Of a stretch of DNA of 64,000 nucleotides, positions 46,973 through 50,039 are shown piece after piece. How positions within the stretch are numbered: the first letter of the stretch is position 1; each line of letters starts with the position of its first letter. The DNA comes from Actinomycetospora corticicola (GTDB taxonomy: Bacteria > Actinomycetota > Actinomycetes > Mycobacteriales > Pseudonocardiaceae): contig NZ_JACCBN010000001.1 of assembly GCF_013409505.1 (NCBI RefSeq), positions 1,550,001 through 1,614,000 of the forward strand, given 5' to 3'. The position numbers and the translations under genes are program-made. Below the pieces are notes generated by a model. The model was not told the origin of the DNA. It was given only the letters and a program-made list of their open reading frames with translations, and did no database searches.

Positions 46973-47929
46973 GTGAGCACGGCGGTCGGTCCGACGCCGA
47001 CGGGGGCGAGGACCGGGCTCGGCGGGTACTGGGACCGCTCCGTGGCCACCGTCCGCGCGTACCTCGCGTTGACCAAGGCCCGGATCATCGAGCAGCTGCT
47101 CGTGGTCACCGTGCCGGCGATGATGCTCGCGCAGCGTGCGGTGCCCTCGCTCTGGTTGGTCCTGGCGGTGCTGCTCGGCGGCGCCATGGCCGCGGCGAGC
47201 GCCCACGCGCTGAACTGCGTGATCGACGCCGACATCGACGCCAAGATGGCCCGCACGCGGAAGCGGCCGCTGGCGCGCGACGCCGTGCCGCGCTCCCACG
47301 CCCTGGTGTTCGGCCTGGTGCTGGGGGCGATCTCGGCCGTGTGGCTGGGCCTCACCGCCAACTGGACGGCCGCGGCCCTCTCGGTCGCCGCGATCGCCTT
47401 CTACATCGTGGTCTACACGCTGGTGCTCAAGCGCCGGACCTCGCAGAACATCGTGTGGGGCGGCGCCGCCGGCTGCATGCCCGTCGTCATCGGGTGGGCG
47501 GCCGTCACCGGCAACGTCGGCTGGCCGGCCCTGGTGCTCTTCGGGATCATCTTCTTCTGGACCCCACCGCACTTCTGGGCCCTCGCGATGCGCTACCGCG
47601 ACGAGTACGCCGCCGCCGGGGTGCCGATGCTCCCCGTGGTCGCGTCCCCGCAGCGGGTCTCGCGCCAGATCGTCCTCTACTCGTGGGCGATGGTGGCCTG
47701 GTCGGTGCTCCTGGTCCCGGCCACGTCGTGGATCTACCTCGCCACCGCCGTCGTCGGCGGCACGTGGTTCCTCGTCGCCGCCCACCGGCTGGACCGGGCC
47801 GTGCACCGCGACGAGGTCGTCAACTCGATGCGCCTGTTCCACCTGTCGAACACCTACCTCACGGGTCTGTTCGTCGCGGTGGCGGTGGACTCGGCCTTCG
47901 GGTGGCCGGTCTTCGGCTGGCCCTTCTAG
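46973..47929 (+). CDS. ctaB: Protohaem IX farnesyltransferase (haem O synthase)
   Basis: Adds a farnesyl group to haem for cytochrome c oxidase. UbiA-type membrane enzyme with about eight or nine helices and the Asp-rich NCVIDADIDAKMARTRKRPL motif; second site MRYRDEY. 318 residues. GTG preceded by GAGAGGACC. ctaA lies about 2.1 kb downstream on the other strand, so the haem A pathway is nearly contiguous. Confidence 0.97.
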   Translation: MSTAVGPTPTGARTGLGGYWDRSVATVRAYLALTKARIIEQLLVVTVPAMMLAQRAVPSLWLVLAVLLGGAMAAASAHALNCVIDADIDAKMARTRKRPLARDAVPRSHALVFGLVLGAISAVWLGLTANWTAAALSVAAIAFYIVVYTLVLKRRTSQNIVWGGAAGCMPVVIGWAAVTGNVGWPALVLFGIIFFWTPPHFWALAMRYRDEYAAAGVPMLPVVASPQRVSRQIVLYSWAMVAWSVLLVPATSWIYLATAVVGGTWFLVAAHRLDRAVHRDEVVNSMRLFHLSNTYLTGLFVAVAVDSAFGWPVFGWPF

Positions 47930-47957
47930 CCCTGGCTGATCGTCCGGCCCCCCGCCG

Positions 47958-48013
47958 CGAGGTGCACATCAGGCATCTCCGGCGGCCCGGGAACCTGCAC
48001 CATGTGAATCTCG
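47958..48013 (+). repeat. 56-base hairpin repeat, copy C (diverged)
   Basis: Begins CGAGGTGCACATCAGGCA and carries GAACCTGC at the same offset as copies A and B; arms CGAGGTGCACATCAGG and CCTGCACCATGTG...CTCG can pair with small bulges. It lies 5 bases from the stop of the DUF559 gene. Confidence 0.6.
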
Positions 48014-48018
48014 TCGGA

Positions 48019-48882
48019 TCACACCGTGCAGCCGCGCAGCGCGAGGGTCTTCAGCAGGCGGCGGACGAACGCCAGCGGGAACAGCAGGTCGTCTGCCGTG
48101 CAGGGCACGACGATCCACCCGCACGATGCGAGCTCGGCGAGGCGTGACTGGTCGCGGCGCCACTGCTTGAGGTCCATCCGGTGTCCGTCGCCCTGGTACT
48201 CCGCGGCGACCTTGAACTCGTCCCAGCCGAAGTCGACGCGGGCCACGAAGAGGTACTGGGCATCACGGACCTCGAACTGCGGGGTCGGTGTCGGGACCTC
48301 GTTGCGCGCCATCGCCAGGCGCATCACCGTCTCCGGCCGGGAGCCCGACCGAGGGTCGGCAGCCTCGACCGCGGGTGCCACACGTCGGGCGCCGCGGGCT
48401 CCGGCCGGCCGGTCCAGCAACCGCGCCGGATCGAACTCGCCGACCCGGGCCAGGGCGTCGAGCGCGACCACCCCGTCGACGAAGCCGAGCCGGCGGACGA
48501 GATCCCACGCCGTCCGCTCCGTCGAGGTCACGAGGAGCCCGTCGACCTCCACGACGTCGTCCCCGGCGACGGTGTCCCGGCGGATGGACAGGCCCGGCCG
48601 TGGGCGGACGCTCCGTCGGCCCACGATCAGGTCGACCACCGCGTCCGGCGGGGCGATGTGGGCTCCGTGGACCTCGGCAGCTGCATATCCGCCCACGACC
48701 GGTGGGTCCCCACGCACATAGAGCACGGCCTCCCGCGCCCGTCCGACGAGATCGTCCGGGTCCGCGACCTGGTCCGTCAGCACCCGGACGTTGGGAAACA
48801 GACGTGTCGTCGACGGCCCGGCGAGCCGACCGCGCGTGATGTCTCCAGCTGCGAGGGCCTCGTTCGCCCGGAACGGCCCCAT
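48019..48882 (-). CDS. DUF559/Vsr-like endonuclease-domain protein
   Basis: Predicted nuclease of unknown role. N-terminal about 100 residues look like the AbiEi-like winged region often fused in this actinobacterial family (ANEALAAGDITRGRL). The C-terminal part has a Vsr-like PD-(D/E)xK core: VDFGWDEFKVAAEYQGDGH (candidate acidic residues) and the GWIVVPCTADDLL end. ATG 48882 chosen (MGPFRANEAL); a longer frame would run into a repeat. It stands between ctaB and qor, flanked by three hairpin repeats. 287 residues. Confidence 0.7.
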   Translation of the reverse strand: MGPFRANEALAAGDITRGRLAGPSTTRLFPNVRVLTDQVADPDDLVGRAREAVLYVRGDPPVVGGYAAAEVHGAHIAPPDAVVDLIVGRRSVRPRPGLSIRRDTVAGDDVVEVDGLLVTSTERTAWDLVRRLGFVDGVVALDALARVGEFDPARLLDRPAGARGARRVAPAVEAADPRSGSRPETVMRLAMARNEVPTPTPQFEVRDAQYLFVARVDFGWDEFKVAAEYQGDGHRMDLKQWRRDQSRLAELASCGWIVVPCTADDLLFPLAFVRRLLKTLALRGCTV

Positions 48883-48939
48883 GATGTGCTCCACACCAGC
48901 TTGGAGTCCGTCGACGCCCGATCGGTTCCGTCCGGTCTT

Positions 48940-48995
48940 CGAGGTGCACACCAGGCAGCCGCACGGCCGGAAGAACCTGCCTCACGTCACCCTCG
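48940..48995 (+). repeat. 56-base hairpin repeat, copy A
   Basis: Same orientation as copy B, differing at 3 of 56 positions; AGGCAG and CTGCCT inside can pair around an 18-base loop, with GAGG/CCTC at the ends. Lies 57 bases upstream of the DUF559 start. Confidence 0.75.
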
Positions 48996-49020
48996 CGTAG
49001 GCAGCTGGCCCACCGCCCGG

Positions 49021-49076
49021 CGAGGTGCACACCAGGCAGCCGCACGGCCCGCGGAACCTGCCTCACGTCACCCTCG
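49021..49076 (+). repeat. 56-base hairpin repeat, copy B
   Basis: Starts 81 bases after copy A. Its last 9 bases cover the final codons and stop of qor, so the repeat has become part of that gene's end. Confidence 0.75.
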
Positions 49077-50039
49077 GGACGGCACCAGCAGCAGCTTCCC
49101 CGACGTGGCCCGGCCCTCGAGGTCACGGTGCGCGTCGGCGGCCGCCTCGAGGGGGTAGCGGGCGCCGATCCGCACCGACAGCGACCCGTCCGCCACGGCC
49201 GCGAACACCTCGGCCGCCCGCGAGCGCAGCTCAGCAGTCGTCCGCACGTGCCACCCCAACGACGGGCGGGTGAGGTACACCGAGCCGGCCGCGTTGAGTC
49301 GCTGCGGGTCGACCGGCGGCACCGGTCCGGACGCCGCGCCGTACAGCACCAGCACGCCCCGCACGCGCAACGAGGCCAGGGAACCGTCGAACGTCGTCGC
49401 GCCCACCCCGTCGTACACGGCCGCGACGCCGTCACCCGAGGTCAGCGCGCGCACCTCCTCGGCGAACCCCTCGTAGCCCAGCACGTGCGCCGCCCCCGCG
49501 GACCGGGCCAACGAGGCCTTCTCCGCGGTCGACGTCGTCGCGACGACGGTCGCCCCCAGCGAGGACGCCATCTGGCACAGCAACAGCCCCATGCCGCCCG
49601 CCCCGGCGTGTACGAGCACGGTGTCGCCCGGGCGCACGGCGTAGGTGTCGTGCACCAGGACGTGGGCGGTCAGCCCCTGCAGCAGGACGGCCGCCGCCAC
49701 GTCGGCCGACACCCCCGGGGGCACCGGCACGCACCGCGCCGCCGGGACCGCCGCCGTCTCGGCGTAGGCCCCCGGACCGTCGCAGAACGCCACCACGTCG
49801 CCTACGGCCACGTCGGACACCGACGACCCCACCGCGCGCACGGTCCCGGCACCCTCCAGCCCGGGCACCGTCGGCAGGGTCGACGGGTACAGGCCGCTGC
49901 GCAGGTAGGTGTCGATGTAGTTCACCCCGGCGGCGGCGACGTCGACGAGCACGTCCTCCGCGCCGACGTCCGGCTCGGGCACCTCGGACGGGACCAGGAC
50001 CTCGGGCCCGCCGTGGGCCTCGACACGAACGGCACGCAT
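49068..50039 (-). CDS. Zinc-type quinone oxidoreductase (QOR family)
   Basis: NADPH:quinone reductase-like MDR protein. GroES-like N-terminus (GVNYIDTYLRSGLYP), Rossmann motif HAGAGGMGLLLCQMA, YDGVGATTFDGSL; 323 residues and no structural zinc site visible. ATG 50039 has TAGGGT 8 bases upstream. Homologous placement to qor (Rv1454c) near ctaB. Confidence 0.9.
   Translation of the reverse strand: MRAVRVEAHGGPEVLVPSEVPEPDVGAEDVLVDVAAAGVNYIDTYLRSGLYPSTLPTVPGLEGAGTVRAVGSSVSDVAVGDVVAFCDGPGAYAETAAVPAARCVPVPPGVSADVAAAVLLQGLTAHVLVHDTYAVRPGDTVLVHAGAGGMGLLLCQMASSLGATVVATTSTAEKASLARSAGAAHVLGYEGFAEEVRALTSGDGVAAVYDGVGATTFDGSLASLRVRGVLVLYGAASGPVPPVDPQRLNAAGSVYLTRPSLGWHVRTTAELRSRAAEVFAAVADGSLSVRIGARYPLEAAADAHRDLEGRATSGKLLLVPSRG

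Follow-up and report, generated by a model that had tools for sequence, protein, structure and literature searches.

A DUF559/Vsr-like nuclease gene bracketed by palindromes in Actinomycetospora corticicola points to an undescribed partnership of repeat and enzyme in actinobacteria

Introduction

The closest described system to the one reported here is the REPtron (RAYT/TnpA-REP), in which a single gene is bordered by cognate palindromes that are also dispersed between genes, and in which protein and palindrome diverge together, as described in PMC8266576 and PMC3733652. The REPtron enzyme is a Y1 transposase, and the REPtron palindrome has the foot GTAG. REP-like palindromes with no known enzyme exist as well: CGTC-tagged and untagged REPs are dispersed without a RAYT of their own, and PMC3733652 presents their origin as open. 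In type IV toxin-antitoxin systems, the AbiEi antitoxins recognize inverted repeats of 23 bp that come in pairs (PMC7319586). The EDxHD/Vsr-like homing endonuclease I-Bth0305I binds as a dimer to a target almost 60 bp long (PMC3943268). The Pfam family PF18741 is named after a Vsr-type nuclease (PMC3710099), and a Vsr-like repair protein is treated in the DUF559 literature (PMC12907096).

Here we analyze a locus of the soil bacterium Actinomycetospora corticicola, contained in a stretch of 64,000 nucleotides (positions 1,550,001 to 1,614,000 of contig NZ_JACCBN010000001.1; referred to here as the window, whose numbering is used for the locus). As in the REPtron, one gene is bordered by palindromes that are dispersed between genes, and protein and palindrome diverge together (Mantel r = 0.39). 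Unlike the REPtron, one genome holds several different gene-palindrome pairs, the palindrome consensus starts with CGAG, and the protein, AbiEi-like plus a Vsr-like nuclease, belongs to another superfamily. Because of this difference in superfamily, and because no Y1/HUH transposase match (PF01797) was found in the genome at E 0.01, in a search that was positive in 6 of 14 control genomes, we call the system REPtron-like rather than a REPtron. A candidate partner gene is present, unlike for the CGTC-tagged and untagged REPs. The AbiEi-like part, found in some members of the family, recalls the type IV systems, but no DUF1814 toxin gene adjoins, the neighbors being ctaB and qor; moreover, the protein is fused to a nuclease domain, and the repeats are dispersed. 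The nuclease domain may be related to that of I-Bth0305I, and the element, at 56 bp, is close in length to the target of that enzyme. Unlike in homing systems, however, no intron or intein was seen around the gene, which does not interrupt its target: whole palindromes lie on both sides of it and elsewhere in the genome. The elements also differ from MITEs and insertion sequences in having no target-site duplication.

Results

Three elements around a nuclease-like gene

The initial annotation of the window reported three 56-bp repeats in register and in one orientation, and all three are present: copy C (47958..48013), which lies downstream of the nuclease gene and after ctaB, copy A (48940..48995), and copy B (49021..49076), all on the plus strand, with starts 982 and 81 bases apart. 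Copies A and B are identical at 53 of 56 positions, as reported, while A/C and B/C identities are 38/56 and 40/56. Because 75 members of the same family were found in a 1.6-Mb genome sample, the three copies are not a chance resemblance. Their description as hairpin-capable was partly apt: dyad symmetry is kept, with outer arms complementary at 12, 12, and 13 of 18 positions, but DNA folding relative to shuffled sequence is modest (z = −2.55 for C, −0.51 for A, and −1.39 for B), and the variable pairs of the family do not covary. No known RNA family was found in positions 47800-49200.

The neighbors are a ctaB-like protoheme IX farnesyltransferase gene (46973..47929, plus strand) and a qor-like quinone oxidoreductase gene (49068..50039, minus strand; start placed by eye), both named after the initial annotation. 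One copy had been noted to form the end of qor, and this holds for copy B, whose last 9 bases are the final codons and stop of that gene: the product ends in ...LLLVPSRG, and CGA GGG TGA lies within the repeat. In the relative G002, where this site is empty, qor ends in ...LLLVP (by eye).

The open frame of the nuclease gene spans 48019-48951 on the minus strand. Homologs suggest that translation starts at the GTG at 48894, yielding a gene of 48019..48894 (minus strand) and a protein of 291 amino acids, the start of which probably lies outside the repeat. The designation of this protein as a DUF559/Vsr-like nuclease stands through the domain matches of its relatives, the window protein itself being below every Pfam cutoff (for DUF559, PF04480, 13.2 bits against a cutoff of 20.6). 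We assigned it to DUF559 because 11 of 16 family members match at E 0.01; at the same threshold, 14 match PF18741 and 6 match AbiEi_1, for which the window protein gave no match. The family profile matches PDB entries 3hrl (1.6e-4) and 3r3p ("Mobile intron protein"; 0.0016), the latter of which we take to be I-Bth0305I, both over the nuclease part. Across the 16 members, D221 and D248 are invariant and E188 and E232 nearly so, a set that would suit an active PD-(D/E)XK or EDxHD site. The structure model was poor (pLDDT 55) and too weak for a structure search. In a search for viral relatives, 35 stretches matched a pattern and 0 were confirmed.

Half-sites dispersed through the genome

The A. 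corticicola genome is a single contig of 6.17 Mb, in which a loose pattern of the palindrome arms matched 191 times, against 4 in a backwards control. The sample in which 75 elements were counted consisted of 80 pieces of 20 kb each, 1.6 Mb in all, including one piece picked for its seven-element array, and extrapolates to roughly 270 elements per genome. A slightly different threshold gave 77 elements in 1.664 Mb and 0 in reversed sequence. The consensus of 73 full-length copies consists of inverted half-sites, CGAG-N4-AC-N4-GGCA, flanking a variable 20-bp middle. Dyad symmetry is conserved, since positions 1 to 4, 9 to 10, and 15 to 18 pair with their mirror positions in 74 to 100% of copies. 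The remaining positions mostly pair in half of the copies or fewer, and no covariation of variable paired positions was detected in the 73 copies, all from this genome. Two inverted half-sites describe the element better than a hairpin does.

Among the 75 elements, 37 lie between codirectional genes, 24 between convergent genes, 9 between divergent genes, 4 in a called open reading frame, and 1 at an edge, the convergent and divergent counts being roughly in proportion to the base pairs that each class occupies. Target-site duplications around the 75 elements were not above those in shuffled flanks. Several familiar identities were considered for the elements and rejected: a hairpin under selection, given the lack of covariation and the modest folding; transcription terminators, given no bias toward convergent genes; a classical MITE, given no target-site duplication; and RAYT-driven REPs, given a genome without a Y1_Tnp match.

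Seven elements form a tandem array with a spacing of ∼82 or 124 bp (locus L104, 12896-13568; genome positions 4752896-4753568). At two places, one near genome position 512914 (locus L004) and one in the ctaB gap of the relative G013 (locus L205), the same IS110-like end was seen by eye a few tens of bases past a palindrome copy, as if that insertion sequence favored these repeats.

Paralogs with palindromes of their own

A search with the window protein found 12 such genes in the A. corticicola genome, itself included, and a wider profile found 14. According to the initial annotation, a repeat that was widespread and not enriched near DUF559 genes would speak against a link between the two. 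The repeat is indeed widespread, and it is absent within 1.5 kb of 11 of the 12 DUF559-like genes; however, the paralogs carry brackets of their own. Since 10 of those 11 genes have their own, different segments on both sides, enrichment is gene specific. When about 480 bases on each side of a gene were compared, 11 of the 12 genes shared a two-sided flank segment scoring at least 26.6, with the gene at L038 failing. By eye, these segments are mostly palindromic and differ from gene to gene, usually as separate families. By comparison, 9 of 388 control genes of 600 to 1,200 bp from the sample reached a score of 25 (Fisher 2e-15); these controls came from a simple gene caller with 76% coverage of the sample and were not filtered for DUF559 genes. 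In a control of spaced genes, drawn from this genome only and with at least 100 bp of noncoding DNA on each side, 4 of 98 passed (Fisher 4e-11). In the comparison of the 12 genes, as in that on other genera below, some long flank matches extend into coding DNA. One of the nine passing controls is an AbiEi_4 gene whose product matches the family profile, and a palindrome family with 13 copies in the sample matched the flanks of that gene only among 13 genes tested.

The brackets are in most cases also dispersed. In a 26% sample of the genome, the arms of 9 of 11 brackets recurred away from the 12 loci above a reversed-arm control, in 3 cases through no more than 1 or 2 matches. The L032 bracket was not above control (5 matches versus 6), and the L035 bracket did not recur in this sample. 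De novo clustering of palindromes was noisy, with 617 palindromes against 618 in reversed sequence, counts that agree because reversal keeps palindromes; GC-rich clusters matched many loci, and only clean families were used. A family beginning AGCGTCGTTGC... has 8 copies in the sample (L062, position 11647, and seven others) and no partner among 13 AbiEi/DUF559-type genes tested.

Another family without a partner among the tested genes, with 26 copies in the sample and 220 arm matches (control, 0), was used for a forward test. Three intervals were chosen, each flanked by two copies of this orphan family. One of the three held a new gene of the family type (L357; genome positions 1020350-1021550), encoding a protein of 319 amino acids, most of which aligns with the family profile (43.5 bits) and for which Pfam gives only a subthreshold AbiEi_4 hit. 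The other two intervals held unrelated genes (BrkB-like and methyltransferase). The end of the L357 gene runs into the bracketing palindrome, as that of qor does in the window. By eye, part of the nuclease site seems to be missing in the L357 protein and in an A. lemnae protein. Since the L357 gene is bracketed despite this seemingly incomplete site, cleavage may not be needed. The A. lemnae gene (L124, 6946-7896) lies in the ctaB-qor gap; its product is without the EYQGDxH nuclease stretch, and the palindrome close to it is a different one.

The gap between ctaB and qor in relatives

The three closest named relatives of the CtaB protein, at 94%, 86%, and 86% identity, all come from Actinomycetospora records, and ctaB was present in 18 of 18 genomes of the genus. 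In 15 of the 18, a DUF559-type match was present in the 1.5 kb next to ctaB, at 52% identity or more in 8 and at only 32 to 45% in 7; the latter may belong to another lineage. Among the other three genomes, G013 has an ortholog (81%) about 4.5 kb away, past an inserted stretch of IS110-like appearance, the G016 contig stops at ctaB, and G002 has a clean gap of 66 bp (by eye) between the two stop codons, with no repeat. Neither G002 nor G006 had a protein match genome-wide at 1e-20, a threshold that leaves room for more distant paralogs. The initial annotation had proposed comparing this gap in strains lacking the gene, with an empty site that kept all three copies counting against the idea; G002 retains none of them. 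Of nine gaps inspected by eye, all but that of G002 carry palindromes, in a version that differs per species, including species-specific elements in G008 at the place equivalent to copy C. G017, G004, and G001 carry the gene in the opposite orientation. Some DUF559 copies are split in two or carry an in-frame stop (L235/L243 in G007; L230 in G014).

Matches to the A. corticicola-type arms numbered 125 in G000, 118 in G013, 50 in G008, 41 in G017, 40 in G009, 37 in G005, 37 in G010 (a 59% complete genome), 20 in G002, and 0 to 3 in the other ten, counts that are low estimates for other species because the pattern is tuned to the A. corticicola genome. Thus G002 had 20 matches against 37 to 125 in the seven genomes that are closest by ctaB, and all three matches in G004 were at its DUF559 gene. 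With a pattern of the G008/G017 type, counts were 51 in G017, 34 in G008, 26 in G013, 23 in G009, and 16 each in A. corticicola and G010, against 0 to 3 per genome in the backwards control; allowing two mismatches, this pattern separates species only partly. A genus-wide motif gave 2 to 7 matches per genome and 0 to 2 in reversed sequence. At a syntenic site near 1684537, A. corticicola, G013, and G008 each carry their own version of the element and G002 carries none. Because the DNA of these relatives is about 88% identical, presence or absence at syntenic sites could reflect loss or gain, and no insertion was seen directly.

Bracketing and co-divergence beyond the genus

With the Pfam DUF559 model, 18 of 41 Actinomycetota genomes were matched. 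Of 30 loci from this search, 27 entered the flank test and 1 was dropped because its flank was too short; 13 of the 26 beat the best of 20 shuffles by at least 3. In G033, which belongs to another family, the gene is flanked left and right by a near-perfect palindrome whose arms match 19 times across the genome (control, 0), and 4 of these matches fall at the gene itself; G033 is the one genome in which dispersal outside the genus was tested. The 16-member profile matched more broadly, in 50 of the 60 genomes examined in this class. With one gene per genome from 25 other genera, 20 of 28 genes passed and 8 failed the bracketing test (21 of 29 passing with A. corticicola included), a pass being a score that exceeded the highest of 50 shuffles by more than 3; 29 of 30 loci were testable, and L332 passed by just 0.2 points. 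Under the same criterion, 4 of 305 control genes passed (Fisher 5e-22), these being genes from ctaB neighborhoods (L126 to L202), unmatched for genome or orphan status.

For the 26 genes with a bracket of at most 120 bp, we compared repeat similarity with protein similarity. The two were correlated over 310 pairs labeled as different loci (r = 0.55; 0 of 5,000 permutations) and remained so after removal of pairs with homologous outer flanks (Mantel r = 0.39 over 298 pairs; 0 of 5,000 permutations), a set in which the protein score fraction exceeded 0.6 in only 3 of 298 pairs.

Discussion

The claim with the strongest support is that gene and palindrome are cognate partners. These data establish the bracketing and its recurrence in Actinomycetota, the dispersal of many of the palindromes, specificity gene by gene, and the parallel divergence of repeat and protein. 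The initial annotation had proposed either a nuclease acting on a palindromic target of its own or a small mobile unit whose repeats travel with it. What we find of this is a cognate gene-repeat pair that recurs across Actinomycetota. We favor, at a probability of roughly 0.6, the reading that each AbiEi-type DUF559 gene and its bracketing palindrome form a cognate pair in which the protein reads its palindrome and works on it as a nuclease, a REPtron-like unit with an unrelated enzyme. Each protein likely binds its own palindrome. The AbiEi-like N-terminal part would read one inverted half-site, probably with two monomers per palindrome, and the C-terminal Vsr-like/EDxHD nuclease domain would nick or cut there, or cut the same DNA when single-stranded. 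A 56-bp target of two half-sites is plausible because AbiEi proteins use pairs of 23-bp repeats and the I-Bth0305I dimer covers about 60 bp. We hypothesize that the nuclease drives the spread of the palindromes: its activity may copy or move them into new intergenic places and may also keep them alike.

The alternative that survives best, though we consider it unlikely, is that the palindromes are operators through which the AbiEi-like domain regulates its own gene and a regulon, with the nuclease serving elsewhere and the copies kept by selection. AbiEi proteins autoregulate via inverted repeats (PMC7319586), dyad half-sites without covariation are what such binding sites would look like, and the L357 gene is bracketed although the nuclease site of its product looks incomplete. 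Operators would not, however, be expected on both sides of a gene and in tandem arrays, nor would they lie between divergent (9 of 75) and convergent (24 of 75) genes at close to base-pair shares, and their number would hardly vary among relatives as greatly as the arm counts do, even with a pattern tuned to A. corticicola.

It is improbable that the gene is a guest, inserted into or caught between palindromes that spread by other means, for example as terminators or as a MITE mobilized by an unknown transposase. Elements also adjoin unrelated genes, and IS110-like stretches (by eye) lie next to one palindrome copy in A. corticicola and one in the G013 gap, as this reading would have it, but most tested genes have a palindrome of their own and repeat similarity tracks protein similarity; the convergent-gene bias expected of terminators is absent, and the search for a transposase, limited to the Y1_Tnp type, found no match. 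Similarly improbable is a homing-type selfish gene, the nuclease of which would cut palindromes in gene-free DNA so that recombination via the flanking palindromes copies the gene in: the EDxHD-like domain, the empty site in G002, and the variable orientation of the gene at one site would agree with it, but the target survives insertion because the brackets leave palindromes beside the gene, and 15 of 18 species have a DUF559-type gene no more than 1.5 kb from ctaB, albeit with 32 to 45% identity in 7 of them.

Beyond the pairing itself, we suggest tentatively, at somewhat short of even odds, that Actinomycetota hold a large unrecognized class of replicators, each an AbiEi-type reader with a Vsr/EDxHD cutter that keeps up and spreads a private palindrome along the chromosome, with about a dozen independent pairs in the one genome and joint change of protein and palindrome giving rise to new specificities. 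We found no earlier description of the gene-palindrome pairing in the open-licence literature, where the papers naming DUF559 do not deal with repeats, judging by title or the opening of the abstract; one may exist elsewhere. The evidence points to a partnership of repeat and enzyme of a kind not described before, shared by this soil bacterium with many other actinobacteria. A nuclease-like family of unassigned function thereby gains a testable substrate for each member, readable from the flanks of its gene, and the pairs make up a natural library of proteins and sites that would be useful for learning how such nucleases choose their sequence.
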